NCBI GenBank assembly: GCA_900320605.1 | Contig: ONSY01000110.1 | Coordinates: 1-38,971, forward strand | DNA length: 38,971 bases | Direction of reading: 5' to 3' | From: an uncultured Eubacteriales bacterium | Lineage (GTDB): Bacteria; Bacillota; Clostridia; Oscillospirales; Acutalibacteraceae | Shown: one piece after another, positions 7,625 to 21,887 of the stretch | Layout of the letters: each line of letters starts with the position of its first letter | Numbering within the stretch: the first letter of the stretch is position 1 | Program-made: the position numbers and the translations under genes | The notes under the pieces: model-generated | The model's input: only the letters and a program-made list of their open reading frames with translations | The model's database searches: none | What the model was told of the DNA's origin: nothing

Positions 7625-9157
7625 TTATTCCCATTCCACCGTTGCCGGAGGCTTCGATGAAATATCGTACACTACTCTGGATATTCCGGGCACTTCGTTC
7701 GTGATGCGGCTGCTGGCTTTTTCGAGTACTTCATACGGAATTCTGCTCCATTGGGCTGTCATGAAATCGTCCGTGGAAACCGCGCGAAGCGCGATCATCG
7801 ATCCGTAGGTTCTCGCGTCGCCCATAACGCCGACGCTGCGGGTGTCTGTCAGAACCGCGAAATACTGATCTGGCAGGTTTTCCGGTGCAGCACGGTCAAT
7901 CTCCTCGCGGAAAATCGCGTCTGCTTCCTGCAGCAGCCTTACTTTTTCTCTTGTTATTTCTCCGATGACCCGAACCGCAAGACCGGGTCCGGGGAACGGC
8001 TGACGGTTGACGAGTTCCCTGCGAAGACCGAGCAGAATACCGATGCGGCGAACCTCATCCTTGAAAAGGTTCCGAAGCGGCTCCGCAATTTCGTCAAACG
8101 CGATCACGTTCGGAAGACCTCCGACGTTATGATGACTTTTGATAACAGCAGAATCGCCCTTTCCGCTCTCGATGACATCGGGATAAATCGTACCCTGTGC
8201 CAGAACTTCGATATGCCCGAGTTTTTTCGCTTCTTCTTCGAAAACACGGATGAATTCCTCTCCGATGATTTTCCGCTTGCTTTCCGGATCTGATATTCCT
8301 CTGAGTCTGTTCAGAAAACGTTCCTGCGCGTTGACGCGGATCAGGTTGACCCCCAATTCCTGCCGGAATGTATTCTCAACAAAGTCTCCTTCGCCTTTTC
8401 GAAGAAGTCCGTGGTCGACAAAAATACATGTCAGATTCGCTCCCACTGCCCGATGCAGCAGCAACGCGGCGACGGAGGAGTCAACTCCGCCGGAAAGCGC
8501 GAGCAATACTTTCTTTCCTCTGAGCTTTTCGGAATATTCCGTGATGATCTCGGAAACGAAGTTTTCCACCATCCAGTCGCCGGTGCAGCCGCAGATCAGA
8601 AACAGGAAGTTATTCAGAATCCTGTTCCCGAATTCAGTATGCGTCACTTCGGGATGAAACTGCACCGCGTAAAGCCGGCGCGGATTGTCCGCCATTGCGG
8701 CACAGGGGCATTTTTCCGTTCTGGCAATGACTTCGAATCCTGCGGGAACGCCGCTGATAAAATCCGTATGACTCATCCAGCAGAGGCTTTCGTCCGGTAC
8801 TCCGTCAAAGAGAGGATGCTTTTCTGCTTTCAGCACAGCTTTTCCGTACTCGCTTGAGTTCTTTGCGGAAGAGACATGACCTCCGGAAAGATAAGCCAGA
8901 AGCTGAGCTCCGTAGCAGATCCCGAGGACCGGAATCCTAAGGCGGAGAATAGCTTCCTCGCAGCGCGGCGCGTCCGGTTCATAGACACTGTTCGGTCCGC
9001 CGGTAAAAATAATCCCTTTATAGCCTGCTTCCGCAATTTTTTCCGGCGTGATGCTGTGATAGGACAGAATTTCCGCATAAACGTGCTGTTCGCGCACCCT
9101 TCGCGCAATCAGCTGATTGTACTGTCCGCCGAAATCAAGAATCAGTATTTTTTCCAT
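7625..9157 (-). CDS. guaA: GMP synthase (glutamine hydrolysing)
   Basis: Converts XMP to GMP using ATP and glutamine. 510 residues, full length. Order of domains: class I amidotransferase with the elbow GICYGAQL and [12 protein letters not shown] pyrophosphatase with the P-loop [15 protein letters not shown]-terminal dimerisation domain ending in [12 protein letters not shown]. The ATG at 9157 follows asnB by 24 nt with only a weak GA-rich ribosome site, so translation is probably helped by the upstream gene. It belongs to the glutamine-using group pyrG/purF/asnB. Confidence 0.97.
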
Positions 9158-9181: not shown

Positions 9182-10765
9182 TTATGTTCCGCTGTCTCCG
9201 TAGTTGGAAAGCACACGTGCAGAGGGATCGTTGACATTGCATCCTTCCCATTCCCGGTTCGGCATCCAGAAATCGCTCACCATCCGGGACTGACCCGGGT
9301 AATGCTTTTCAAAGAGTTCCCGGTAGAGCAGGGATTCTTTCGTAAACGGCCGCGCGTGTTTAAAACGGATCCGGCGGTCGTAGAATTCTTCATCGGTATA
9401 AAGAGATTCGGCATATTCCTTGAGATCGTCCACCATGGAATGACCGACCGCATCTGCAAAAGCGGCTTTTTCACGCCAGAGAATCTCATCGGGCAGGAGA
9501 TTCATACCTTCAAACGCATGGCGCAGGAGGTACTTTCCTTTTCCGTACCGGTTCATTTTCATTTCCGGAGGAAGGCTCATTACGTATTTTACGAAATCAA
9601 GATCCCCGAAGGGAACCCGAGCTTCCAGCGAGTTGACGGAAATACAGCGGTCCGCGCGCAGGACGTCATACATATGGATTTCACGGATCCTCTTTTCCGC
9701 TTCCTCCTGAAAAGCCTGCGCGTTAGGAGCGAAATCCGTGTATTTATACCCGAACAGTTCATCGGAGATCTCCCCGGTGAGAATCACGCGGACGTCCGTC
9801 TGTTCGTGAATTGCCCTGCAGACCAGATACATTCCCATGCTTGCGCGGATTGTCGTGATATCGTACGTTCCGAGCAGTTCCACGACTCTTTCCAGATTTT
9901 CGAGGACTTCTTCTTTTGTCATGATGATTTCGGTATGGTTCGAACCGATGTATTCGGCAACCTGGCGGGCGTATTTGAGATCAATCGCATCTTTTTCCAT
10001 TCCGATCGCGAACGTGCGGATCGGTTCGCGGCTCTTCTGAGAAGCTATGGCGCAGACCAGTGAGGAATCAAGTCCGCCCGAAAGAAGAAATCCGACTTTT
10101 GCGTCGGAAACGAGCCGCTTTTCCACACCCGCGATCAGTTTCTCACGGATTTTTGAACAGGCGGCGTCCAGACCATCCGGAGACACTTCCTCCACTGCCG
10201 ACATATCCGCATAGCGGATAAATTCACCGCCGCGGTAATAATGCCCCGGAGGGAAGGGGAGAATGGTATCTGTCAGCCCGACCAGGTTTTTAGCTTCGCT
10301 TGCGAAAATAATGATTCCCTTTTCATCGAATCCGTAATAGAGAGGGCGGATGCCGATCGGATCGCGCGCAGCCAGATATTCTCCGCTTCTGCCGTCAAAA
10401 AAAATCATCGCAAATTCCGCGTCCAGCCGGGAAAACATTTGCGTACCGTATTCAAAGTACATCGGGAGAATGATCTCACAGTCGCTGTCGGATGAGAAAG
10501 TGTATCCTTTTCGGCGAAGATCGTCACGCTCTTTTTCAAATCCGTACAGCTCGCCGTTGCACACGACCCAGCTGCCGTCAAGCCCGAAGGGCTGCATTCC
10601 CGACGGTGTCAGTCCCATAATTGAAAGCCGGTGGAATCCCAGAAGTCCTTTGCCCGTATCGATGATTCTGCTGTCATCCGGCCCGCGGGATTTTGTGCGG
10701 CGGAATCCTTTCCGGAATTTCTCCATGTCAGCTTCTGCTCCGCAATAGCCCATAATAGAGCACAT
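9182..10765 (-). CDS. asnB: Asparagine synthase (glutamine hydrolysing)
   Basis: Makes asparagine from aspartate, ATP and glutamine. 527 residues. I chose the ATG at 10765 because it yields MCSIMGYCG: Cys2 is the class II amidotransferase nucleophile exposed after Met removal. A Met two codons earlier would bury it. Further motifs: GPDDSRII in the amidotransferase half and LLSGGLDSSLVCAIAS, the ATP-pyrophosphatase loop, in the synthetase half. It sits between the amt-PII fusion and guaA. A 63-nt gap upstream contains a strong hairpin without a T-run. Confidence 0.93.
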   Translation of the reverse strand: MCSIMGYCGAEADMEKFRKGFRRTKSRGPDDSRIIDTGKGLLGFHRLSIMGLTPSGMQPFGLDGSWVVCNGELYGFEKERDDLRRKGYTFSSDSDCEIILPMYFEYGTQMFSRLDAEFAMIFFDGRSGEYLAARDPIGIRPLYYGFDEKGIIIFASEAKNLVGLTDTILPFPPGHYYRGGEFIRYADMSAVEEVSPDGLDAACSKIREKLIAGVEKRLVSDAKVGFLLSGGLDSSLVCAIASQKSREPIRTFAIGMEKDAIDLKYARQVAEYIGSNHTEIIMTKEEVLENLERVVELLGTYDITTIRASMGMYLVCRAIHEQTDVRVILTGEISDELFGYKYTDFAPNAQAFQEEAEKRIREIHMYDVLRADRCISVNSLEARVPFGDLDFVKYVMSLPPEMKMNRYGKGKYLLRHAFEGMNLLPDEILWREKAAFADAVGHSMVDDLKEYAESLYTDEEFYDRRIRFKHARPFTKESLLYRELFEKHYPGQSRMVSDFWMPNREWEGCNVNDPSARVLSNYGDSGT

Positions 10766-10785
10766 AACCAATCATTCCTTTGAAG

Positions 10786-10828: not shown

Positions 10829-12547
10829 TTATTCAACGTCCTGCAAGGCAGCGTATCCTTCCTCGCCGGTGCGTACCTTAACTACATTTTCCACATCATA
10901 GACAAAGATTTTTCCATCACCGATATGGCCGGTGTAGAGCACTTTTTTGGCGGTTTCGATCACATCGCGTACCGGAATTGCAGAAACCACGATATCTACC
11001 TGAACCTTGGGGCGAAGGTCGGTTTCCACCGCAACGCCGCGGTAGAATTCCGTATGTCCGTTCTGCATACCGTACCCCATGACATGCGAAACCGTCATTC
11101 CGGTAATCCCGAGTTTACTCATTGCGTCCTTGAGCGCATAGAGCCTTTCTTCCTTGAAAACGATTTCGACCTTGGTGAATTTATGTCCGTCGAAGGAAGG
11201 CTCCCGCTTCACGGGAATCGCTTCGGCAACTGGAGCCGTTCCGGTAACGGCGACGATCTGGTCTCCGGTTCCGAATTCAGCATACTTGTCGACGGCGGGC
11301 ATAAAATCTGCGTAGGCGCTCGGCAGACCGTGTTCGCTTGTGTCAAGTCCGGAAAGCTCGTCAGCCGGTTCCGCTCTGAGAAAGTTTACCTTCCTGAGCA
11401 TTTTAAAGAAGCAGAACATCGTCAGGGAAGTCCAGGCGGCAACCGCTGCAAAGCCAAGCATCTGAAGACCCAGCTGTGAAAAGCTGCCGGTATAGAAAAG
11501 ACCGTTCAGCCCGGCCGGGGCATCCGGGTTCGCAAGCAGACCGACTGCGATTGTTCCCCAGATTCCGTTCGCGCAGTGGACGCCGACGGCTCCGACGGGA
11601 TCATCAATGTGCAGCTTCAGATCGAGCATTTCCACAACCAGAACGACAAGTATTCCGGCGACGATACCGACCACAGATGCGCCGACCGCGTCAAAAGCGT
11701 CACACCCGGCGGTAACAGCGACCAGTCCGGCGAGTGATGCGTTGAGACACATCGAAACATCCGGTTTTCCGTTTTTGATCCAGGTGTAGATCATGGTGGT
11801 ACAGGTTGCAACAGAAGGCGCGATGGTCGTCGTCAGAAAGATCGAGGAGAGTTCCGACGGGGAGGTGGCTGCGGCGCCGTTGAATCCGTACCAGCCGAGC
11901 CAGAGAATAAATACGCCCAGAGCCCCGAGCGGGATTGAATGGCCGGGTATTGCGTTGACCTTAGTTACTTTCCCGTTCTGATCTGTGACGTATTTCCCGA
12001 TACGCGGACCGAGAAGATACGCTCCGATCAGTGCGGCTATCCCGCCGACCATATGGATTGCGCAGGATCCCGCGTAGTCATGGAATCCGATCCAGGAGAG
12101 CCATCCGCCGCCCCAGATCCAGTGAGCTTCAATCGGATATATGATCAGACTGATGAAACCGGAGTATACACAATAGGCTGAAAATTTCGTACGTTCCGCC
12201 ATCGCTCCGGAGACGATCGTTGCGGTTGTAGCACAGAACACAAGGTTAAAGACGAAAGTGCTCGCGCCGGTAAATCCTTCAGCCGGCGAAGCGATGAACG
12301 CCTTGAATTTCGTGAACAGATCGAGATTCGGGATTCCGATCAGTCCGAAAAGCGCGTCTTCTCCCATCATCAGCGTATATCCGAGCAGAGAGAAAACGAC
12401 GGTTCCGATACAGAAATCCATCAGATTCTTCATAATGATGTTTCCGGCGTTCTTTGCCCGCGTAAAGCCGGTTTCCACCATCGCAAAGCCGGCCTGCATC
12501 CAGAATACCAGCGCAGCGCCGATCAGAAACCAAAATTCAATACTCAT
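10829..12547 (-). CDS. Ammonium transporter fused to a C-terminal PII (GlnK-like) signal domain
   Basis: 572 residues. Residues 1 to about 420 are an Amt/MEP/Rh transporter with about eleven membrane helices and the two pore histidines in SCAIHMVGG and GVHCANGIWG; the Amt C-terminal motif GLDTSEHGLPSAY follows. After a linker, residues about 457-572 form a complete PII domain with a T-loop around GYGMQNGHTEFYRG and a C-terminal GDGKIFVYDVENVVKVRTGE. PII normally sits as a separate trimer on the Amt trimer and plugs the pores through its T-loop; here both are one chain. The T-loop keeps the Tyr46 equivalent but has Val where enterobacterial PII has the uridylylated Tyr51. It starts 20 nt after the glnN stop. 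Confidence 0.93.
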   Translation of the reverse strand: MSIEFWFLIGAALVFWMQAGFAMVETGFTRAKNAGNIIMKNLMDFCIGTVVFSLLGYTLMMGEDALFGLIGIPNLDLFTKFKAFIASPAEGFTGASTFVFNLVFCATTATIVSGAMAERTKFSAYCVYSGFISLIIYPIEAHWIWGGGWLSWIGFHDYAGSCAIHMVGGIAALIGAYLLGPRIGKYVTDQNGKVTKVNAIPGHSIPLGALGVFILWLGWYGFNGAAATSPSELSSIFLTTTIAPSVATCTTMIYTWIKNGKPDVSMCLNASLAGLVAVTAGCDAFDAVGASVVGIVAGILVVLVVEMLDLKLHIDDPVGAVGVHCANGIWGTIAVGLLANPDAPAGLNGLFYTGSFSQLGLQMLGFAAVAAWTSLTMFCFFKMLRKVNFLRAEPADELSGLDTSEHGLPSAYADFMPAVDKYAEFGTGDQIVAVTGTAPVAEAIPVKREPSFDGHKFTKVEIVFKEERLYALKDAMSKLGITGMTVSHVMGYGMQNGHTEFYRGVAVETDLRPKVQVDIVVSAIPVRDVIETAKKVLYTGHIGDGKIFVYDVENVVKVRTGEEGYAALQDVE

Positions 12548-12567: not shown

Positions 12568-14664
12568 TTATTTCACGCTGAAAAGAATATCTCCGTAGGT
12601 CGGGAACGGCCAGTAACTCTTCGCCGTCAGCAGCTCAGCCCGGTCGCAGGGAATTCTCAGTTCGCTCATTCTGGGAAGCACAGTATCACGGATCAGCGCG
12701 GATTCCGCGATAATATCTTCCGCATCCTGCAGCCCGATTACGGCTTTTTCCAGCTCGCCGGCCTTCTCCGCAATACAGTCCGTCAGGGCGGAGAGCTTTC
12801 TTACCAGTTCGGTTTCATAGCCGCATGTTACATCCGGAGCAAAGGATCTCTTCTCAGAAGCCTGTTTTGCGAGGTCCGAAGTAAAACGGGTGATTGCCGG
12901 AGCGATTCTCTTATGAACCATATTGATCATGGTGTTCGCTTCAATCACAACACTTTTGCAGTAATTTTCAAGCATGATGTCGCGTCTGGAGCGGAGTTCG
13001 TCAATGGTGAAAACACCAAGACCTGTCAGCATCGTGACATTCTTCTTGTCAAGAAGATGCGGCATGCAGTCTGCCGTTGTCCGGTAGTTTAAAAGTCCGC
13101 GCGCTTCGGTTGCTTCTTCGATCCAGGCGTCATCGTACCCGTTGCCGTTGAAGATAATGCGCTTATGCTCTCTGATCGTTTCCTTGATCATTTCATGCAG
13201 TTCGGATTCAAAGTCACCGGCCTGTTCGAGACGATCGGCGTAGATACGCAGACTTTCGGCTACCGCGCTGTTAAGCATGATGTTCGCACAGGCGATCGAG
13301 TTCGAGGAACCAAGCATCCGGAATTCAAATTTGTTCCCGGTAAAAGCGAAGGGTGACGTGCGGTTGCGATCCGTGGTATCCCGGTTGAATTTCGGCAGGA
13401 CATCCACACCGAGCTTCATCTGCAGCTTCTGAGAGCCCTGATAGGGCGTGTCGGTTTCGATTGCTTCGAGAACAGCGTTCAGCTCGTCGCCGAGGAAAAT
13501 TGAAATAACAGCGGGCGGAGCTTCATTTGCGCCGAGCCGGTGATCATTTCCTGCCGTTGCGACTGAGATCCTGAGAAGGTCCTGATAATCGTCGACTGCT
13601 TTGATAACAGCGCAGAGGAACAGCAGGAACTGCGCGTTCTCATACGGCGTATCGCCGGGGGAAAGCAGATTCTGGCCGCTGTCCGTTGCGATGGACCAGT
13701 TGTTATGCTTGCCGCTGCCGTTGACACCGGCGAAAGGCTTTTCGTGAAGCAGACAGACCAAACCGTGTTTTGCGGCGACCTTCTGCATGATCTCCATTGT
13801 CAGCTGGTTATGATCCGTGGCGACGTTGGTTGTTGTATAAATGGGAGCAAGCTCATGCTGAGCGGGAGCAACTTCGTTGTGTTCCGTTTTCGCAAGAATC
13901 CCGAGCTTCCAGAGCTCGTTGTTCAAGTCTTCCATAAAAGCGGCGACACCTGGCTTGATTACACCGAAATAGTGATCATCCAGTTCCTGACCCTTCGGCG
14001 GTTTTGCTCCGAAGAGGGTTCTGCCGGTAAAGCGAAGATCCGGTCTTGCGTCATACATTTCCTTCGTAATAAGGAAATATTCCTGTTCAGGACCGACGGA
14101 AGAAACAACCCTTTTTGCGGTATCATTGCCGAAAAGCCGCAGAATACGGAGCGCCTGCCGGCTTAAAACTTCCATGGAGCGAAGCAGTGGTGTCTTTTTA
14201 TCGAGCGCATGACCGCCGTAGGAGCAGAACGCTGTCGGAATGCAGAGCGTCTTTCCCTTGATGAACGCGTAGGAAGTCGGATCCCAGGCTGTGTATCCTC
14301 TGGCTTCAAAAGTTGCCCGCAGGCCGCCGGACGGGAATGAAGAGGCGTCCGGTTCTCCTTTAATAAGCTCCTTGCCGGAAAATTCCATGATAACGCTTCC
14401 GTCCGGAGAGGGGGTGATGAAGCTGTCGTGCTTTTCCGCGGTGATTCCGGTCAGCGGCTGAAACCAGTGCGTAAAATGGGTTGCGCCTTTCGAAACCGCC
14501 CAGTTCTTCATTGCCTCGGCTACCGCGTTGGCCACACTGATATCCAGTTCTTTCCCTTCGTCAATCGTTTTCCGGAGAGAAGCGTAAACGTCTGCGGAAA
14601 GGGTTGCCCGCATTACGCGATCGTCAAAAACCTGGCTTCCGAAATAATCTGATACTGTACTCAT
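12568..14664 (-). CDS. glnN: Glutamine synthetase type III
   Basis: ATP-dependent ligation of ammonia to glutamate, GSIII class (large-subunit form found in anaerobes and cyanobacteria). 697 residues, about the family length and far longer than GSI. Family-typical stretches include [52 protein letters not shown] and GSGKHNNWS. The start at 14664 is supported by AAAGGAG upstream and by the conserved [14 protein letters not shown]-terminus; a further upstream in-frame ATG is rejected. First gene of the minus-strand glutamine operon, preceded by a consensus promoter and a structured leader of about 160 nt. With the short GS on the other strand this is the second glutamine synthetase in the window. 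Confidence 0.96.
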
Positions 14665-14689: not shown

Positions 14690-14737
14690 AAAGGCAAAGA
14701 CACCTTTTGCGAAACACAAAAGACGCCTTTGCCTTTT
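14690..14737 (-). promoter_or_regulatory. Second leader hairpin of glnN, with alternative AAAGGC hexaloop hairpin
   Basis: Two mutually exclusive folds. A short one (14737-14718) has a 7-bp stem closing the loop AAAGGC. A long one (14736-14690) is a stem of about 20 pairs, several of them G-U, with a UUU tip. The long fold is followed only by UUUACUCAUUU, a poor terminator tail; on the opposite strand it is followed by TTTTTA. The hexaloop is identical to that in the leader of the divergent operon. Confidence 0.6.
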
Positions 14738-14769
14738 TATGCAGTTTGATTCGATCCGCTCTTCTCCTG

Positions 14770-14817
14770 AAAAAGAAGAAAGAGCGTCTTCGAGTACATT
14801 CACTCAAAGACGCCCTT
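14770..14817 (-). terminator. Leader terminator (attenuator) of the glnN operon
   Basis: On the minus strand a 16-bp stem (14817-14802 with 14795-14780; two G-U pairs) closes a six-base loop and is followed by TCTTCTTTTTC. It lies about 10 nt into the transcript and more than 100 nt before glnN, as expected for attenuation. Its 5' arm shares 14806-14817 with the hexaloop hairpin just upstream, so only one of the two can form. Confidence 0.75.
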
Positions 14818-14823
14818 GCCTTT
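14806..14823 (-). promoter_or_regulatory. Predicted ANTAR-target hairpin, hexaloop AAGGGC, glnN leader
   Basis: AAAGGC / GUCUUU stem (6 bp, one G-U) around loop AAGGGC, at the very 5' end of the predicted transcript. Loop A1 and G4 match the rule for RNA targets of ANTAR antiterminators. It overlaps the terminator arm. Binding is inferred, not shown. Confidence 0.65.
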
Positions 14824-14832
14824 CTGTGCGAA

Positions 14833-14861
14833 ATTATACTCCCGGAGTTCCCGGTTGTCAA
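14833..14861 (-). promoter_or_regulatory. Consensus SigA promoter of the glnN operon
   Basis: Minus strand TTGACA (14861-14856), 17-nt spacer, TATAAT (14838-14833): a perfect match to consensus, with a predicted start near 14826. Such a strong promoter suggests that control is mostly after initiation, in the leader. Confidence 0.9.
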
Positions 14862-14911
14862 CCCCCTTTTTTCTCTTTTTGTAAACTGACGCAATCCGCG
14901 GGATTTTCCAC

Positions 14912-14940
14912 TTGACATCCTGTAACGGGTGGCGTATAAT
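14912..14940 (+). promoter_or_regulatory. Consensus SigA promoter of the glutamate synthase operon
   Basis: TTGACA (14912-14917), 17-nt spacer, TATAAT (14935-14940), again a perfect match. Its -35 lies 50 bp from the -35 of the divergent glnN promoter; the short T-rich spacer between has no obvious palindrome. Confidence 0.9.
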
Positions 14941-14947
14941 GCAGGCA

Positions 14948-14965
14948 ATGAGCAAAGGCGTTCAT
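14948..14965 (+). promoter_or_regulatory. Predicted ANTAR-target hairpin, hexaloop AAAGGC, glutamate synthase leader
   Basis: AUGAGC / GUUCAU stem (6 bp, one G-U) around loop AAAGGC, starting 8 nt after the -10 box. Same loop class, same closing C-G and same second G-U pair as the glnN leader hairpin. It shares 14955-14965 with the terminator stem, so the two folds exclude each other. Confidence 0.65.
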
Positions 14966-15009
14966 GACGGTACAGGTGCCCTGTACCGGAGTGGACGCCT
15001 TCTTTTTTT
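14955..15009 (+). terminator. Leader terminator (attenuator) of the glutamate synthase operon
   Basis: Long hairpin: outer 7 bp AAGGCGT/ACGCCTT, four weaker pairs, a tandem GA mismatch, inner 9 bp CGGTACAGG/CCTGTACCG with a TGC tip, then C and seven Ts. It ends 27 nt before the first gene, so transcription would stop unless the 5' arm is captured by the hexaloop hairpin. Confidence 0.85.
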
Positions 15010-15036
15010 ATAATCTCCTGGAAGGGAATGGGAAAA

Positions 15037-16131
15037 ATGCGCAAGGAAGGTCAGTTCCGTATACCATCCGGATGTGCGATTGCCGCGGTAATCTCCAGAA
15101 ATGGGGAACGGATGCCCGGCGACCTGATCGCGAAGTCCATGGAACCGATGCACGAACGTTCCAACGGACTCGGCGGTGGGTTCGCAGGATATGGAATTTA
15201 TCCTGAATATCGCGACTTTTATGCACTTCATCTGTTTTTCGACAGCCGTGATGTCCGAAAAGAATGTGAGACCCTATTAAAGGAATATTTTGAAATCGTA
15301 CAGTCGGAGATTATCCCGACGAGAAAAATCCCGGAGATTACGGATGAGCCGATCATCTGGAGATATTTCGTCGCCCCGCTGAATTCAATGCTTCGCAGCC
15401 TTCAGCTCGACGAAAAGGAGCTTGTAGCGCGTACGGTGATGAAAATCAATACCGAAATGAAAGGGGCCTATGTCTTTTCAAGCGGAAAAAACATGGGAAC
15501 CTTTAAGGCGGTTGGCTTTCCCGAAGACGTGGGAAGGTTCTACCAGCTCGAAAACTATGCAGGCTATTCATGGACGGCACACGGCCGATATCCGACCAAT
15601 ACCCCGGGCTGGTGGGGAGGCGCTCATCCATTTACGCTGCTGGATTTTTCTGTCGTCCATAATGGAGAAATATCTTCTTATGACGCAAACCGGCGGTTTA
15701 TTGAAATGTTCGGATACAAATGCACACTCCTGACCGATACGGAGGTCATTACCTATATCATGGATTATCTGATCCGGATCCAGGGCCTATCGATGACGGA
15801 GGCCGCGAATGTTGTCGCAGCGCCGTTCTGGAGTACGATCGAACGTGAATGGGATCGCGAGGAACGGCAGAAGCAGGCGTATCTGCGAACCGTTTTTCCC
15901 AGTCTCCTCGTAACCGGCCCGTTTTCCATTGTTTTAGGTTTCACCGGAGGTATAATGGCGCTGAACGACCGGCTGAAACTGCGTTCAATGGTGGTCGGTG
16001 AAAAAGATGAGCGAGTATACATTGCGAGCGAAGAGGCGGCGATCCGGGCGATGGAGCCGGATGTGGAAAAAATCTGGGCTCCGGCAGGCGGAGAGCCTGT
16101 CATCATCCGTGTGAAAGAAGGTGTCTGCTGA
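15037..16131 (+). CDS. Glutamate synthase, glutamine amidotransferase subunit (archaeal-type split GltB N-domain)
   Basis: Class II (Ntn) amidotransferase domain that hydrolyses glutamine and passes ammonia to the FMN subunit. 364 residues from this start. The probable nucleophile is the Cys of IPSGCAIAAV near the N-terminus, which would need propeptide processing. Also visible: RSNGLGGGFAGYGIYPEY, SWTAHGRYPTNTPG and VVHNGEISSYDANR, typical of the class. Start choice: the ATG at 15037 is about 11 nt after GGAAGGG and gives the short N-terminus expected; an in-frame ATG at 15028 is almost on top of the ribosome site. First gene of a seven-gene plus-strand run, behind an attenuator. In ordinary bacteria this domain is fused to the rest of GltB. 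Confidence 0.9.
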   Translation: MRKEGQFRIPSGCAIAAVISRNGERMPGDLIAKSMEPMHERSNGLGGGFAGYGIYPEYRDFYALHLFFDSRDVRKECETLLKEYFEIVQSEIIPTRKIPEITDEPIIWRYFVAPLNSMLRSLQLDEKELVARTVMKINTEMKGAYVFSSGKNMGTFKAVGFPEDVGRFYQLENYAGYSWTAHGRYPTNTPGWWGGAHPFTLLDFSVVHNGEISSYDANRRFIEMFGYKCTLLTDTEVITYIMDYLIRIQGLSMTEAANVVAAPFWSTIEREWDREERQKQAYLRTVFPSLLVTGPFSIVLGFTGGIMALNDRLKLRSMVVGEKDERVYIASEEAAIRAMEPDVEKIWAPAGGEPVIIRVKEGVC

Positions 16132-16132
16132 A

Positions 16133-17638
16133 ATGGGAATCGATTTCATATACCCCGAATTTGAAGTTGTCCGGAATGAAAACCGGTGCATTGCCTGCCG
16201 CGTCTGTGAACGTCAGTGCTCAAACGAAGTCCATTCCTTCAGTGCCGAGCGCGGAATCATGATGAGCGATGAGACAAAATGCGTCAACTGTCAGCGCTGT
16301 GTTTCGCTCTGCCCGACCAGGGCGCTCAAGATCGTAAAAAGCAACTGCACATTACGGGAGAATGCCAACTGGCAGAACGATACGATCCGTGAAATATATA
16401 AGCAGGCGCAGAGCGGGGGCGTTCTCCTTTCTTCCATGGGAAATCCGAAACCGTTTCCTGTTTACTGGGACAAGATCCTGATCAATGCTTCCCAGGTAAC
16501 GAATCCGTCGATTGACCCGCTGCGCGAACCGATGGAAACTCATGTTACTCTTGGAAAGAAACCGGACCGGGTGCGCCGCGACGAACAGGGAAATATCCTT
16601 CGGGAGCTTCCGCCGCAGATTTCTCTCTCCATGCCGGTTATGTTTTCCGCGATGAGTTACGGCTCGATCAGTTACAATGCCCATGCTTCCCTCGCTCGTG
16701 CTGCGACGGAGCTCGGGATCCTCTATAATACAGGCGAAGGCGGCCTGCATGAGGATTTCTACAAGTACGGCGCAAATACGATTGTTCAGGTTGCAAGCGG
16801 GCGATTCGGTGTGCATGAGGACTATCTTGAAGCCGGTGCCGCAATTGAGATAAAAATGGGTCAGGGCGCGAAACCCGGAATCGGAGGGCATCTTCCCGGT
16901 GCGAAAATCGTTGGAGATGTCTCGAAAACACGTATGATTCCCGAAGGCAGCGACGCGATTTCTCCCGCGCCGCACCATGATATTTATTCGATCGAAGATC
17001 TTCGCCAGTTGGTCTATTCGCTGAAAGAAGCGACTGAATATCAGAAACCGGTGATCGTAAAGGTTGCCGCAGTACATAATATCGCGGCGATCGCAAGCGG
17101 AATTGCCCGCAGCGGCGCGGATATTATTGCGATAGACGGATTCCGCGGCGGTACCGGTGCGGCTCCCACGAGAATTCGTGATAACGTCGGAATTCCGATT
17201 GAGCTTGCACTTGCGGCTGTGGATCAGCGGCTGAGAGACGAGGGGATACGCAACAGTGTTTCTCTGGTTGCCGGAGGGTCTATCCGAAGCGCCTCAGACG
17301 TCGTTAAAGCGATTGCACTCGGCGCGGATGCCTGTTATATCGCAACGGCTGCGCTTTTGGCACTTGGGTGTCACCTCTGCCGTACATGCCAAAGCGGAAA
17401 ATGCAACTGGGGAATAGCAACACAGCAGCCCGAACTTGTTCGGCGGCTGAATCCGGAAACCGGATGTGAACGCCTTGTAAACCTGATGACCGCCTGGCGC
17501 CGGGAGATTATGGAGCTGATGGGCGGAATGGGAATCAATTCCATTGAAGCGCTGCGCGGCAACCGAATGATGCTGCGCGGAGTCGGCCTGAATCAGAAAG
17601 AGCTGGATATCCTTGGTATCTCGCATGCGGGGGAATAA
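16133..17638 (+). CDS. gltB: Glutamate synthase, FMN/Fe-S catalytic subunit with N-terminal 2[4Fe-4S] ferredoxin domain
   Basis: Carries the alpha/beta-barrel that reduces 2-oxoglutarate plus ammonia to glutamate on FMN. 501 residues. Residues about 15-75 hold two ferredoxin motifs (CIACRVCERQC and CVNCQRCVSLCP). The barrel follows with MSYGSISYNAHASLARAA, GEGGLHEDFY, IKMGQGAKPGIGGHLPG, DGFRGGTGAAPTRI, and the Fe-S cysteines CHLCRTCQSGKC near the end. The GATase, GXGXG and reductase parts are separate genes around it. ATG 16133 was chosen over an in-frame GTG at 16121 because of AGAAGGTG upstream; it follows the preceding stop by one base. The electron source is presumably the ferredoxin and FAD proteins encoded next. 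Confidence 0.93.
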   Translation: MGIDFIYPEFEVVRNENRCIACRVCERQCSNEVHSFSAERGIMMSDETKCVNCQRCVSLCPTRALKIVKSNCTLRENANWQNDTIREIYKQAQSGGVLLSSMGNPKPFPVYWDKILINASQVTNPSIDPLREPMETHVTLGKKPDRVRRDEQGNILRELPPQISLSMPVMFSAMSYGSISYNAHASLARAATELGILYNTGEGGLHEDFYKYGANTIVQVASGRFGVHEDYLEAGAAIEIKMGQGAKPGIGGHLPGAKIVGDVSKTRMIPEGSDAISPAPHHDIYSIEDLRQLVYSLKEATEYQKPVIVKVAAVHNIAAIASGIARSGADIIAIDGFRGGTGAAPTRIRDNVGIPIELALAAVDQRLRDEGIRNSVSLVAGGSIRSASDVVKAIALGADACYIATAALLALGCHLCRTCQSGKCNWGIATQQPELVRRLNPETGCERLVNLMTAWRREIMELMGGMGINSIEALRGNRMMLRGVGLNQKELDILGISHAGE

Positions 17639-17642
17639 TTCA

Positions 17643-18083
17643 ATGAAACGGGTATATGTCAATGAACAGTGGTGCCTTGGCTGCCATCTCTGTGAATACA
17701 ACTGCGCTTTTGCGAACTCCGGGATGACGGACATGGTGCTGGCACTGAAAGGAAAACCGATCTATCCGAGAATCCATGTTGAAGAAGGCGAGAAAATCAC
17801 TTACGCGGTTTCCTGCCGTCACTGTGAGGATCCGCTGTGCGTAAAAAGCTGTATTGCCGGTGCGCTCTTCCGTCAGGACGGAGTGATCCGGATTGACCGG
17901 AAAAAATGTGTCGGATGTTTCACCTGTGTACTTGTCTGCCCATATGGAGCGCTTGCGCCGAATGAGGACGGAGTAATGCAGAAATGTGAGCTTTGTCTGG
18001 AGAACAGCAGCGGTGCGCCGGCTTGTGTTCAGGGATGTCCGAACCGGGCGATCGTTTACGAAGAACGGGAGGAATCGCAATGA
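17643..18083 (+). CDS. 4Fe-4S ferredoxin electron-transfer subunit (HycB/CooF-like), glutamate synthase cluster
   Basis: 146 residues with four cysteine groups: CLGCHLCEYNC, CRHCEDPLCVKSC, CVGCFTCVLVCP, and CELC plus CVQGCP. This is the pattern of polyferredoxin subunits such as HycB/CooF/DmsB, expected to bind up to four [4Fe-4S] clusters. The start is the ATG at 17643, 4 bases after the gltB stop and downstream of GGGGGA; longer frames would run into gltB. Its stop overlaps the next ATG (ATGA). Position between the FMN subunit and an FAD reductase argues that it relays electrons between them; this is inference. Confidence 0.9.
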   Translation: MKRVYVNEQWCLGCHLCEYNCAFANSGMTDMVLALKGKPIYPRIHVEEGEKITYAVSCRHCEDPLCVKSCIAGALFRQDGVIRIDRKKCVGCFTCVLVCPYGALAPNEDGVMQKCELCLENSSGAPACVQGCPNRAIVYEEREESQ

Positions 18084-19312
18084 GACAATATGTGATTATC
18101 GGAAACGGTGTTGCGGCTGCAGGGTGTATTGAGGGAATCCGTACAATGGATTCGAAAAGCGGGATCACGGTTGTTTCCGAAGAAAACCGCGCTGTCTACT
18201 GCCGCCCGTTGATCTCCTACTTTTTGGAAAAGAAAACAGACCCGGAACGTATGCAGTATCGCGACGTACATTATTACGAGCGTATGGGGTGCCGTGTGCT
18301 TTACGGAAAAAAAGCGGTTCAGATTCATAAAGAAAACTGTGAGGCTGAACTGGATGACGGTACGTTTCTGCCGTATGACGGACTGTGCCTTGCGGTTGGT
18401 TCCTCGCCGTTCGTACCCCGCTTTGAAGGAATTGAGAATGTAGAAAAAAAGTTCTCTTTCATGACGCTTGATGACGCGATGGCGCTTGATGCGGCAGTAA
18501 GTGATAATTCGCGTGTTCTGATTGTCGGTGCCGGCCTGATCGGCCTGAAATGTGCGGAGGGGATTGTCGGTCGGGCTGCGAGTGTTGCTGTCTGCGATCT
18601 GGCGGATCGTGTTCTTTCCAGCATTCTGGATACTGACTGTGCTGCAATGATGCAGAAACATCTGGAAGAACACGAGATGCATTTTTATCTGAATGACAGT
18701 GTCAAACGGTTTGAGAAAAACACTGCCTATATGAATAGCGGGGCAGTTGTTCCGTTTGATCTTCTCGTCCTTGCTGTCGGAGTACGTGCGAATACTTCCC
18801 TCCTCAGGGAAGCGGGAGGCGAAGTGAACCGGGGAATAATTGTGAATCGTCAGATGCGGACATCCATTTCCGGTATATTTGCAGCAGGAGACTGTACTGA
18901 AGGGTGGGACAGCTCCATCGGACAGAACCGGGTCCTTGCAATTCTGCCGAACGCTTATCTTCAGGGCTATACTGCGGGAATCAATATGGCAGGTGGTTCC
19001 GAATCTCTTGACAATGCGATTCCGATGAATTCCATCGGCTTTTTCGGTCTTCATGCCATGACGGCCGGTTCGTATGACGGAGACATGTATGAGGAGAAAA
19101 CAGAAACGTCGATAAAACGGCTGTTTTATAAAGATGATCTTCTCAAAGGCTTTATTCTGATCGGCTGTCATGAGCGCGCGGGAATATATACCTCTATGAT
19201 CCGGGAGAAGACGCCGATTTCCTCCGTTAATTTTGATTTACTCAAAAAAGCGGCAACAACGGCGGCTTTTTCTGCCCAAATACGTAGAAAAAAATTCGGA
19301 GGAGTGGTATAA
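18080..19312 (+). CDS. FAD/NAD(P)-dependent oxidoreductase of the glutamate synthase cluster
   Basis: 410 residues, pyridine nucleotide-disulphide oxidoreductase fold. FAD-binding GNGVAAAG at the N-terminus, the NAD(P)-binding VGAGLIGLK near residue 150, and the second FAD motif GIFAAGDC near 270. It resembles rubredoxin- and nitrite-reductase-type NADH oxidoreductases more than GltD, which has N-terminal Fe-S clusters; here those are on the separate ferredoxin. The ATG overlaps the previous stop. Likely role: feed electrons from NAD(P)H to the ferredoxin and on to FMN. Whether NADH or NADPH is used cannot be read here. Confidence 0.88.
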   Translation: MRQYVIIGNGVAAAGCIEGIRTMDSKSGITVVSEENRAVYCRPLISYFLEKKTDPERMQYRDVHYYERMGCRVLYGKKAVQIHKENCEAELDDGTFLPYDGLCLAVGSSPFVPRFEGIENVEKKFSFMTLDDAMALDAAVSDNSRVLIVGAGLIGLKCAEGIVGRAASVAVCDLADRVLSSILDTDCAAMMQKHLEEHEMHFYLNDSVKRFEKNTAYMNSGAVVPFDLLVLAVGVRANTSLLREAGGEVNRGIIVNRQMRTSISGIFAAGDCTEGWDSSIGQNRVLAILPNAYLQGYTAGINMAGGSESLDNAIPMNSIGFFGLHAMTAGSYDGDMYEEKTETSIKRLFYKDDLLKGFILIGCHERAGIYTSMIREKTPISSVNFDLLKKAATTAAFSAQIRRKKFGGVV

Positions 19313-19315
19313 TCT

Positions 19316-20035
19316 ATGGTAATTCATGCAAAATCTCTGGATCACCGGACACTCAATAACGCGATCCGCTCTTCAGACGGCGAGTGTCTGATCGATGGAT
19401 GCTGCGGACAGCGTTTTATCGCCGCCGGGATGAGTGAAAAAGAGATTACCGTTCACGGAATTCCCGGAAACGCTCTCGGCGCTTACCTCAACGGCGGTAC
19501 AGTCACTGTTATGGGAAATGCACAGGATGCCGTCGGCGATACGATGAATGAAGGCAGAATTGTAATACACGGAAATGTCGGCGACGCAGCCGGCTACGCG
19601 ATGCGTGGCGGAAGTATCTTCGTTAAAGGAAATGCCGGATACCGCGCCGGAATCCATATGAAAGCCTATCAGGAAAAAATCCCGCGGATGGTGATCGGCG
19701 GAAGAGCAGGCAGCTTTCTTGGGGAATACCAGGCGGGCGGTTTGATTATCGTTCTCAATCTGTTTTCACCGGATGATAAGATAGTCGGTTACTTTCCCTG
19801 TACGGGAATGCACGGCGGAAAAATGTTTCTGCGTTCAGCATGCGGGGAAATCCGTTTCCCGGAACAGGTGACGGCAAGACCAGCTGAAAAAAAAGACCTT
19901 GCGGAAATAGAAGATTCTGTGTGCGAATTCTGTCAGCTTTTCGGCTTTGATTCACAGAAAATCCTTTCCGCACCGTTTACTGTAGTCACACCGGACAGCA
20001 AAAACCCTTACAGACAGATGTATGTGGCAAATTAA
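19316..20035 (+). CDS. Glutamate synthase GXGXG-domain subunit (split GltB C-terminal domain)
   Basis: 239 residues forming the right-handed beta-helix that ends classical GltB. Repeats of the GXGXG type are plain: PGNALGAYLNGGTVTVMGN, QDAVGDTMNEGRIVIHGN, GDAAGYAMRGGSIFVKGN, GYRAGIHMKAY. In the fused enzyme this domain shapes the ammonia tunnel between the amidotransferase and FMN sites. It starts 3 nt after the oxidoreductase stop, with GGAGG upstream. Completes the split enzyme (GATase + FMN/Fe-S + GXGXG), as in archaeal-type glutamate synthases. Confidence 0.92.
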   Translation: MVIHAKSLDHRTLNNAIRSSDGECLIDGCCGQRFIAAGMSEKEITVHGIPGNALGAYLNGGTVTVMGNAQDAVGDTMNEGRIVIHGNVGDAAGYAMRGGSIFVKGNAGYRAGIHMKAYQEKIPRMVIGGRAGSFLGEYQAGGLIIVLNLFSPDDKIVGYFPCTGMHGGKMFLRSACGEIRFPEQVTARPAEKKDLAEIEDSVCEFCQLFGFDSQKILSAPFTVVTPDSKNPYRQMYVAN

Positions 20036-20053: not shown

Positions 20054-21265
20054 ATGAAGTATTCAAAGGAAGAGGTTATCGCGTATGCGAGGGAAGAGGA
20101 CGTCAAGTTTATCCGGCTTGCTTTCTGCGATGTTTTCGGAAAACAGAAAAATATTTCCATCATGCCGGAAGAACTGCCCCGGGCCTTTGAGTACGGAATC
20201 GCGATAGATGCATCCGCAATTTCCGGATTTGGAGACGAAATGCGAAGCGATCTGCTGCTGCATCCGGTTCCGGATACTCTCGTCCCGCTTCCCTGGCGTC
20301 CGGAACAGGGACGTGTCGTACAGATGTTCTCGACGATTACATATCCGAACGGCACACTGTTTGAATGTGATACGCGCAGTCTTCTGGAACAGGCTGTCGC
20401 CCGTGCGAAGGCATCAGGTTTTGAATTCACGTTTGGCGCAGAGCAGGAGTTTTATCTCTTCCTGCAGGATGAGGAAGGTAAAAAGACAGAAATCCCTGTG
20501 GATGAAGCCGGTTATATGGATATTGCTCCGGAGGACCATGGGGAAAATGTCCGAAGAGAAATCTGCCTGACGCTTGAGAAGATGGGTATCCGGCCCGAAA
20601 GTTCTCATCACGAAGAAGGCCCGGGCCAGAATGAAATTGATTTCCGCTATTCCGACGCCTTGACAGCGGCTGATAATGCGTTAACATTCCAGCGTGTAGT
20701 CAGAACTGTGGCCAACCGAAACGGCCTTGCTGCAGACTTTTCTCCGAAGCCGCTCGATAATGCTCCGGGAAACGGGTTCCATATCAACATCGCCCCGAAA
20801 CCGTTCGGAGATAATGATGTTTTTTCGGAAATGATCGCCGGAATTCTCAAACATGTCCGGGCAATGACCGCCTTTCTGAATCCGACTCCTGCCTCATATC
20901 ATCGACTCGGACATTTTAAGGCCCCGTTGTATATTTCCTGGTCTGCTGAAAACAGATCTCAGCTTGTGCGTATTCCTGCTGCAGAAGGAGAGTATCGGCG
21001 TGCGGAGCTTCGTTCCCCGGATCCATGCACCAATCCATATCTTGCATTTGCACTTTTGATTTATGCGGCTCTTGATGGGATTGAAAATCATCTGGCGCTT
21101 CCGGAAGCGACTGATCTTAATCTGTTCACGGCTGATCATGCGATCCTTTCAAAATATGACAGGCTCCCGGAAAGCTTTGAAGACGCGTGCCATGCTGCTC
21201 TTGGAAGCAATTTCATTCGTGCTCATATCCCCGAACGTATTTTATCGATTTATTGCGGAATCTAA
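20054..21265 (+). CDS. glnA: Short glutamine synthetase (GSI family), in the ANTAR regulator operon
   Basis: 403 residues against about 440-470 for usual GSI; the shortage is largely at the C-terminus. Catalytic landmarks are kept: FGAEQEFYLF, HHEEGPGQNEIDFRYSDAL (metal/ammonium side), GNGFHINIAP, NRSQLVRIPA and RRAELRSPDPCTNPYLA. The adenylylation site region reads DLNLFTADH, with Phe where adenylylated enzymes have Tyr, so that control is absent. The end is IPERILSIYCGI; neighbouring frames show no lost C-terminus, so I do not call a frameshift. AGGAGG precedes the ATG at 20054, 18 nt after the GXGXG gene. Glutamine synthetase is the best call; another gamma-glutamyl ligase remains possible. 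Confidence 0.85.
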   Translation: MKYSKEEVIAYAREEDVKFIRLAFCDVFGKQKNISIMPEELPRAFEYGIAIDASAISGFGDEMRSDLLLHPVPDTLVPLPWRPEQGRVVQMFSTITYPNGTLFECDTRSLLEQAVARAKASGFEFTFGAEQEFYLFLQDEEGKKTEIPVDEAGYMDIAPEDHGENVRREICLTLEKMGIRPESSHHEEGPGQNEIDFRYSDALTAADNALTFQRVVRTVANRNGLAADFSPKPLDNAPGNGFHINIAPKPFGDNDVFSEMIAGILKHVRAMTAFLNPTPASYHRLGHFKAPLYISWSAENRSQLVRIPAAEGEYRRAELRSPDPCTNPYLAFALLIYAALDGIENHLALPEATDLNLFTADHAILSKYDRLPESFEDACHAALGSNFIRAHIPERILSIYCGI

Positions 21266-21302: not shown

Positions 21303-21887
21303 ATGAACCTGGAAGAGCGAATTTACAGCGTTCTCGTCGTTTCAGCGGCGGAAAAATTGAATACGGCTCTTTCTTCATTCCTGGCACAGCCGCGCTATGG
21401 ACCGGTAAAGATTGTTTCCGGTGTAAGCTCGGCAAAACGTGCTCTGCGTGAGAGGGATTTTGATTTTGTGATTGTCAATTCGCCTCTGCCGGATGATACC
21501 GGTCTGCGCTTTGCGATTGATACTTCATCTTCCGGGGAAGCAGTGACTCTTCTGCTGGTACGAGCGGAACTGTATGATGATATAACTGAAAAGGCCTCTG
21601 AAAACGGAGTGTTTACGTTATACAAGCCGCTTTCCCGGCCGATCTTTTCACTTGCGCTTGCATGGATGGAAAGCGCAAGAGAAAGGTTGAGAAAGATTGA
21701 GAAAAAAACTCTCTCTTTTGAGGAGAGAATGGAAGAAATCCGTCTTGTGAATCGCGCAAAATGGCTTCTGATTTCTGAACTCAAAATGGATGAGCCTCAG
21801 GCACACCGTTATATTGAGAAACAGGCTATGGATCGATGTGTCTCCAAGCGAGAGATTGCGGAAGAGATTATACGGACATATTCATAA
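21303..21887 (+). CDS. ANTAR-domain RNA-binding antiterminator with degenerate receiver (NitR-like)
   Basis: 194 residues. The N-terminal part (about 8-120) has the receiver fold pattern but lacks the phosphoacceptor: the Asp position is Asn59 in VIVNSPLPDDTG, and the first acidic pair reads Ser14-Ala15; Lys108 of LYKP is kept. A helical coiled segment (about 122-148) leads to the ANTAR domain (about 145-192): LVNRAKWLLISELKM, EPQAHRYIEKQAMD, SKREIAEEII. ANTAR domains bind tandem RNA hairpins and stop terminators from forming. Linkage to glnA resembles glnA-nitR of Clostridium saccharobutylicum. AAGGAAAGGA precedes the ATG. Targets are probably the leaders at 14.7-15.0 kb; the input signal is unknown, perhaps PII or a ligand. 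Confidence 0.92.
   Translation: MNLEERIYSVLVVSAAEKLNTALSSFLAQPRYGPVKIVSGVSSAKRALRERDFDFVIVNSPLPDDTGLRFAIDTSSSGEAVTLLLVRAELYDDITEKASENGVFTLYKPLSRPIFSLALAWMESARERLRKIEKKTLSFEERMEEIRLVNRAKWLLISELKMDEPQAHRYIEKQAMDRCVSKREIAEEIIRTYS

Follow-up and report, generated by a model that had tools for sequence, protein, structure and literature searches.

Divergent single-hexaloop leaders of a glutamine synthetase and glutamate synthase island in Clostridia as probable ANTAR-controlled attenuators

Introduction

How are two divergently transcribed nitrogen operons controlled when their transcripts begin, a few bases after the promoter, with almost the same small hairpin? This question is raised by a stretch of 38,971 nucleotides from an uncultured bacterium of the Clostridia, which was analysed at its full length and is referred to here as the window. 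Within it, glnN on the minus strand and a split glutamate synthase operon on the plus strand flank two diverging perfect sigma-A promoters, and the glutamate synthase operon ends in a gene for an ANTAR protein, the single ANTAR gene detected in this 2.1-Mb draft assembly (92% complete). An original prediction, made from the DNA letters of the window, had proposed that both leaders are attenuators targeted by this protein. In this study, we revisited that proposal by comparing the leaders, the ANTAR protein and the neighbouring genes with those of related genomes and with known ANTAR systems.

Results

Two divergent operons and their leaders

The genes concerned are the following.

12568 to 14664, minus strand: glnN, glutamine synthetase type III (GSIII), gene 1 of the minus operon (GSIII_N, 7e-81)
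10829 to 12547, minus strand: ammonium transporter and PII domain in one fused protein
9182 to 10771, minus strand: asnB, asparagine synthase
7625 to 9157, minus strand: ORF that we take, from its sequence and established knowledge, to be guaA-like (glutamine-using GMP synthase), final gene of the minus run
15028 to 20035, plus strand: split glutamate synthase, five genes
20054 to 21265, plus strand: GlnA-like protein of 403 aa, divergent GS-I lineage in which Lys replaces the flap Glu
21303 to 21887, plus strand: ANTAR protein with a receiver (Asn59, without phospho-Asp), a coiled coil and an ANTAR domain

The minus run thus reads glnN, amt-PII fusion, asnB and guaA, with intergenic gaps of about 20–57 nt, and the plus run consists of the five glutamate synthase subunits, the GlnA-like gene and, after a gap of 37 nt, the ANTAR gene. 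The glutamate synthase genes encode a class-II amidotransferase, an FMN synthase domain, an Fe-S protein, an NAD-oxidoreductase and a GXGXG protein, an arrangement which differs from the classical layout of a large and a small subunit.

Between the two runs lie the features listed below; R1 is a covariance model of the unit, which is described in the next section.

14912 to 14940, plus strand: SigA promoter of the glt-glnA-like-ANTAR operon (TTGACA 14912–14917, 17-nt spacer, TATAAT 14935–14940; 12/12 match)
14833 to 14861, minus strand: SigA promoter of the glnN operon (TTGACA 14861–14856, 17-nt spacer, TATAAT 14838–14833; 12/12 match)
14948 to 14965, plus strand: putative antiterminator hexaloop hairpin ATGAGC-AAAGGC-GTTCAT, loop 14954–14959
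14955 to 15009, plus strand: competing intrinsic terminator, stem 14955–15001, then a U-run
14806 to 14823, minus strand: putative antiterminator hexaloop hairpin of unit 1, AAAGGC-AAGGGC-GTCTTT, loop 14817–14812
14769 to 14817, minus strand: competing terminator of unit 1, stem 14817–14780, then a U-rich tail
14718 to 14737, minus strand: hexaloop hairpin of unit 2 of the glnN leader, AAAAGGC-AAAGGC-GTCTTTT (R1 match 14692–14737, 40.7 bits)
14690 to 14736, minus strand: terminator-like stem of unit 2 (-28 kcal/mol, poor U-run)

The plus hairpin and the unit-1 hairpin of the minus leader are alike in having 6 bp, a closing C–G pair, a G–U second pair and a loop with A at position 1 and G at position 4 (A1/G4), and they start 7 nt (plus) and 9 nt (minus) after the -10 box. 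What had been said beforehand about the two perfect, oppositely directed promoters, and about the coordinates and closing pairs of these two hairpins, was correct, as was the statement that hairpin and terminator share 11–12 nt: the overlap is 11 nt in the plus leader and 12 nt in minus unit 1. Because the 3' half of the hairpin is the 5' half of the terminator, the two folds exclude each other. Taken alone, the hairpins are weak (-4.6 kcal/mol for plus and -3.9 kcal/mol for minus unit 1), and the terminators fold at -36.1 kcal/mol (z -5.5) and -28.5 kcal/mol (z -5.9), respectively; R1 matches the plus leader at 14947–15006 with 43.9 bits and minus unit 1 at 14776–14824 with 41.1 bits.

For the minus leader, the prediction was right about unit 1 but had overlooked unit 2, which lies further downstream. 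Unit 2 also has an A1/G4 hexaloop on a short stem, as is characteristic of ANTAR attenuators, and also offers a choice between hexaloop and terminator-like stem, though its U-run is weak. As this U-run is poor and the stem ends only about 10 nt 5' of the glnN Shine–Dalgarno sequence, the terminator-like stem of unit 2 may control translation instead of transcription.

Hexaloops of the form AANGGN, closed by C–G on a stem of at least 6 bp, occur three times in the 39-kb window, all in these leaders, against a mean of 0.2 expected across 100 Markov windows. A search of the organism's own genome with the motif GGCAARGGCGTC and one mismatch was uninformative, giving 27 matches compared with 103 for the reversed control; only two of the 27 are exact, both inside the minus leader.

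Conservation of the two competing folds

In approximately 80 ANTAR islands of the same family, we listed every hexaloop that overlaps a terminator, whatever its letters. Among the 923 overlaps the commonest loop was AAAGGC (38), with AATGGC found 11 and AACGGC nine times, and when 40 GSIII upstream regions of ANTAR-negative genomes were examined, none of these three ranked with their most frequent loops. For a second count, terminators were ignored and C–G-closed hexaloops with a stem of at least 5 bp were collected 3–12 nt after a -10 box in the ANTAR islands, the model-match loci and the named loci; A1/G4 was found in 148 of these 201 promoter-anchored hexaloops and the next letter pair in seven. 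As both counts were made without preselecting letters, the letters recognized by ANTAR proteins emerge from the data by themselves.

Both alternative stems were strongly covarying among relatives, the outcome on which the earlier proposal had been made to depend. In an alignment of 52 units (A1), pairing is seen in 97.1% of cases for the antiterminator stem and in 94.4% for the terminator stem, and the two-sided changes number 77 and 87, respectively. None of 500 shuffles reached these values in either case, and versions of either stem slid along the alignment score far lower. Since the A1 units were chosen partly on pairing, we retested the hexaloop stem on rows found by R1, a model whose seed alignment was itself selected in part for pairing and from ANTAR islands but which includes the terminator stem only and not the hexaloop stem. 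In 149 such rows from 80 loci of another collection, the hexaloop stem was paired in 93.9% of cases with 154 two-sided changes. The leaders fall into two paralogous classes, GGC/GTC before glnN, gdhA and others and GAGC/GTTC before glt and glnA-like genes, and because much of the variation separates these classes the independent covariation events are fewer than the counts given above.

Inverted repeats at a start site might also be DNA operators of a repressor, for which this is a frequent place, or the stems might be constitutive terminators and hairpins under no regulation. We consider this scarcely credible, as the loop, which would be a mere spacer in an operator, is asymmetric and exceeds the arms in conservation, the arms co-vary in a way that keeps pairing including G–U pairs and hence points to RNA, and the right arm pairs in addition with the 3' arm of the terminator. 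The conservation pattern is that of a hairpin-or-terminator switch in RNA.

Occurrence of the unit together with ANTAR genes

R1 was trained mostly on units from ANTAR islands, but the searches themselves were genome-wide, so that the motif would be found in ANTAR-free relatives too. Among 150 genomes of the family, 57 were R1-positive and 52 of these carry an ANTAR gene, compared with 91 of the 150 overall (Fisher p 5e-10); among 295 genomes of the order, the corresponding numbers are 80 of 85 and 168 of 295 (p about 1e-18). Named relatives belong to the Clostridia of rumen and gut, among them Mediterraneibacter, Merdimmobilis and Eubacterium sp. 14-2. Conversely, 39 of the 91 ANTAR-positive family genomes have no R1 match, and these may have other ANTAR types or diverged units. 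Of 28 GSIII leader regions, most of them belonging to ANTAR-positive genomes, nearly all gave R1 matches, and among 40 GSIII regions of ANTAR-negative genomes about four weak plausible units were seen.

It had been argued that the hairpin should be missing where the ANTAR gene is missing. This is borne out by the strong association but not by every genome, as no ANTAR gene was detected in five of the 57 model-positive genomes of the family and five of the 85 of the order. The family exceptions are two genomes with weak matches (G004 and G068), two incomplete drafts (G083, 81% complete and with several R1 matches, and G147) and one with a palindromic match (G148); where a terminator is palindromic and R1 matched both of its strands, as at G148 C9 and L262, the matches were taken to be ambiguous. 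Together with G083, a more complete draft (G006) deviates from the expectation. Real-looking single-hexaloop units before GSIII were seen in drafts with no detected ANTAR gene at L184 872–918 (G072, 84% complete) and, below the R1 cut-off, at L199 1655–1699 (G006, 96% complete).

The association also bears on whether the choice of fold is made by a regulator of another kind, such as a riboswitch ligand, a different RNA-binding protein or leader-peptide translation. Glutamine riboswitches and a gltD candidate motif are known in other groups of bacteria (PMC8632094), and the GTT-type hairpin contains a frame led by ATG or GTG and reading MS[KN]GVH. Nevertheless, no Rfam family matched the window at gathering thresholds, an 18-nt hairpin is too small for an aptamer, the loop consensus is that of ANTAR targets and the units go together with ANTAR genes. 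The candidate leader peptide MSKGVH... was rejected, as its frame diverges immediately past the hairpin, to lengths from six to more than 60 codons, and should be without a ribosome-binding site, since the position of the promoter implies a transcript start only a short way upstream. Control by such a regulator therefore seems very unlikely to us, and an ANTAR protein remains by far the best candidate.

One hexaloop per terminator

ANTAR targets have been described as dual hexaloops. EutV needs two hexaloops 5–12 nt apart (Ramesh 2012, PMC3369931). In a later study the EutV dimer was found to bind one loop and the minimal motif was redefined as a single hexaloop, with P1 acting as a recruitment hairpin and both loops needed in vivo for antitermination (Walshe 2022, PMC8934654). 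It could be argued, in keeping with the requirement for both loops in EutV targets, that the leaders studied here are canonical P1/P2 targets in which a weaker second loop was overlooked, or that the tandem units before glnN represent P1 and P2; two units are present in 44 of the 71 GTC-type leaders and three in two of them, and the plus leader of the window has an ACAGGU loop. However, in 161 of the 185 units with a promoter the hairpin begins 4–10 nt past the -10 box, which leaves no room for a hexaloop upstream, and just downstream a second A1/G4 hexaloop is present in 20 of the 185, no commoner than other letter pairs. Of the GTT-type (glt/glnA) leaders, 65 of 66 contain a single unit, and where units occur in tandem, about 60–90 nt separate them and every unit has a terminator-like stem to itself, in contrast to the short linker of the eut targets. 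The ACAGGU loop at 14972–14977, which had been put forward as a weaker second hexaloop of the plus leader, was discarded, since it is not kept in relatives and is probably due to chance. We regard a dual-hexaloop reading as improbable: on the grounds of the missing space upstream, the missing enrichment downstream and the single-unit GTT-type leaders, these leaders lie outside the dual-hexaloop class, which is defined by a second A1/G4 loop at a short linker distance, although they would work like it.

The ANTAR protein and its GlnA-like neighbour

The AlphaFold model of the ANTAR protein (pLDDT 88.9) consists of a receiver, a long coiled-coil helix and an ANTAR domain, and its best full-length superposition is with RNA-bound EutV (TM 0.78). 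Residues by which EutV recognizes G4 or positions the loop are retained: by alignment, its Glu160, Lys149 and Met172 correspond to Glu164, Lys153 and Met176, each of which is present in 70 of 70 relatives, and the position of EutV Tyr164 is taken by His168, conserved in 69 of 70 and also a His in AmiR; the RNA-contacting residues Arg142 and Arg168 of EutV are not retained here. The receiver lacks the phospho-acceptor Asp and the acidic pocket of an EutV-type response regulator. The place of the phospho-Asp is taken by Asn both in the family proteins (Asn59, 62 of 70) and in the named relatives (79 of 80), and that of the acidic pocket by Ser14 (59 of 70 family proteins). Judged from these residues, activation by a histidine kinase is unlikely and, because there is no phospho-acceptor Asp, the signal probably arrives by contact with another protein, as in AmiR and NasT.

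The partner could be encoded next door, where a candidate sensor gene adjoins that of the Asp-less ANTAR protein. Among 71 island cases, 55 have a GlnA-like gene directly 5' of the ANTAR gene, and the same holds for 74 of 80 named loci. The GlnA-like product retains most active-site residues, but Lys replaces the catalytic flap Glu in 29 of the 54 linked proteins of the family, as it does in every one of the 72 named proteins that could be read at this position. A second residue, which matches Arg62 of the Bacillus subtilis enzyme, is also lost in the linked GlnA-like proteins; four of the five unlinked GlnA proteins, namely the intact ones, retain both residues. A quick tree places the lineage that has Lys and a few other replacements in a cluster of its own (33 rows, SH-aLRT 99), separate from true GlnA. 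Separately, in three ANTAR-linked GlnA-like proteins (L099 12208, L097 7049 and L107 12222) the flap region is no longer recognizable, which suggests that catalysis has been lost in these lineages. The GlnA-like protein of the window could be a sensor or an altered enzyme. Taking together the receiver without phospho-Asp and the Lys in place of the flap Glu, our working hypothesis is that GlnA-like and ANTAR form a non-kinase, AmiC/AmiR-like sensor pair and, by analogy, that the GlnA-like protein might sense glutamine or ammonium for the ANTAR protein.

Genes downstream of the units

As is usual for dual-hexaloop targets, though not strictly defining for them, nitrogen-metabolism genes lie downstream of the units. 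In the scanned loci, the gene 3' of the unit was GSIII in 24 cases and the first glutamate synthase gene in 20; ten units lie before glnA-like or glnA and two before amt, and others before gdhA, pyrG, gatC, asnA, nadE and dapF. Away from the island, where the genes beyond R1 matches were identified with NCBIfam, matches often precede pyrG, asnB, gdhA, amt, a PII gene, classical gltB, dapF and others. Because R1 knows nothing of genes, this functional coherence is independent support for the units.

Individual units at L113 16026–16080, L119 17069–17122, L126 3649–3696, L150 4900–4951, L240 1498–1548 and L268 1533–1583 precede pyrG, gatC, asnA, nadE, dapF and a PII gene and would widen the proposed regulon. 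Several weaker matches in trans (for example L252, L266, L267, L270–L274 and L276), which have unrelated or non-genuine ORFs 3' of them, were not counted as targets.

Discussion

We propose that both leaders are transcription attenuators of a single-hexaloop type under ANTAR control, a reading that we hold with considerable confidence on the strength of the sequence comparisons, and that they very probably represent a conserved hairpin-or-terminator switch held open by one ANTAR protein. The original prediction of ANTAR-targeted attenuators is strengthened by the covariation, the association with ANTAR genes and the presence of units before other nitrogen genes; it is weakened by the drafts that have the hairpin but lack a detected ANTAR gene.

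The following course of events can be envisaged. After about 25 nt have been transcribed, the sequence allows a hairpin with an A1/G4 hexaloop to form, and its position, its loop and both stems are conserved. When no active ANTAR protein is at hand, the terminator would form and transcription would end within about 70 nt. An active ANTAR protein would bind the hexaloop as it emerges from the polymerase and stabilize the hairpin, leading to readthrough into glnN-amtPII-asnB-guaA on one side and into the glt-glnA-like-ANTAR operon on the other. The ANTAR gene would be positively autoregulated, since it lies within a controlled operon. One loop might suffice, as no other structure emerges from the polymerase before the hairpin, and the length of the terminator stem would give the protein time to bind. 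Less firmly, the gene content and the precedent of NitR suggest that the protein becomes active at a shortage of nitrogen, probably of glutamine; the signal would reach it by protein contact, with the adjacent GlnA-like protein as the best candidate sensor.

Should the proposed regulon hold, both ammonium assimilation (GS, GOGAT, GDH, Amt and PII) and the use of glutamine or ammonia (AsnA/B, PyrG, NadE and GatC) would be under the control of one RNA-binding protein in many Clostridia of gut and rumen, with a repurposed glutamine synthetase as its probable sensor. More speculatively, natural single-hexaloop antiterminators, in which one loop in the first bases of the transcript is enough, may be combined with a GS-derived sensor, the GlnA-like protein with its Lys flap, that controls an Asp-less ANTAR protein by contact; glutamine or ammonium status would thereby govern a regulon that spans a large part of the ammonia and glutamine metabolism of gut Clostridia. 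As a whole we offer this system tentatively, being ourselves more inclined to doubt than to accept the full combination. The structural work on EutV left unexplained why two hexaloops are needed in vivo when one is bound at a time, and widespread natural leaders with a single hexaloop, whose hairpin is the first structure out of the polymerase, make this question directly testable.

That nitrogen genes of Clostridia are controlled by ANTAR antitermination is already known in outline (NitR; Ramesh 2012). To judge from the open-access literature, neither the single-loop architecture anchored at the start site, nor the breadth of the presumed regulon, nor the Lys-flap GS-like protein encoded beside the ANTAR gene appears to have been described. 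NitR is an ANTAR protein of Clostridium saccharobutylicum which, as summarized in PMC6316151 from Stutz 2007, antiterminates genes of the GS/GOGAT cycle and raises their expression on nitrogen limitation. The ANTAR gene of the island studied here lies in a GS/GOGAT cluster; points of difference are that glnN encodes a type-III GS, that the receiver lacks the Asp and that the GlnA-like protein is of a divergent lineage. An ANTAR gene within a cluster that includes glutamate synthase genes is also found in Clostridium thermocellum (Clo1313_2030-2036; PMC4676874). The eut, nas and ami targets and the Desulfotomaculum and Pelobacter nitrogen regulons (PMC3369931) resemble our leaders in having an A1/G4 short-stem hexaloop that shares sequence with a terminator, and the targets of Ramesh 2012 do so in combining nitrogen genes with an ANTAR protein in the genome; unlike these dual-hexaloop targets, the present leaders have one hexaloop per terminator, in the first bases of the transcript, and no P1 recruitment hairpin. 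The Glu, Lys and Met that recognize or position the loop in the EutV–RNA complex (PMC8934654) are present here too, whereas EutV itself is activated by phosphorylation and needs both loops in vivo.

With AmiC/AmiR and NasS/NasT, which are regulated by protein contact, the system would share a sensor gene adjoining the ANTAR gene, but the putative sensor here is glutamine synthetase-like. A glutamine synthetase in such a role has a counterpart in B. subtilis, where GS senses nitrogen and contacts the regulator TnrA directly (PMC6316151). There, however, an active GS acts on a DNA-binding regulator, whereas in the Clostridia studied here a GS-like protein with an altered flap would act on an RNA-binding one.
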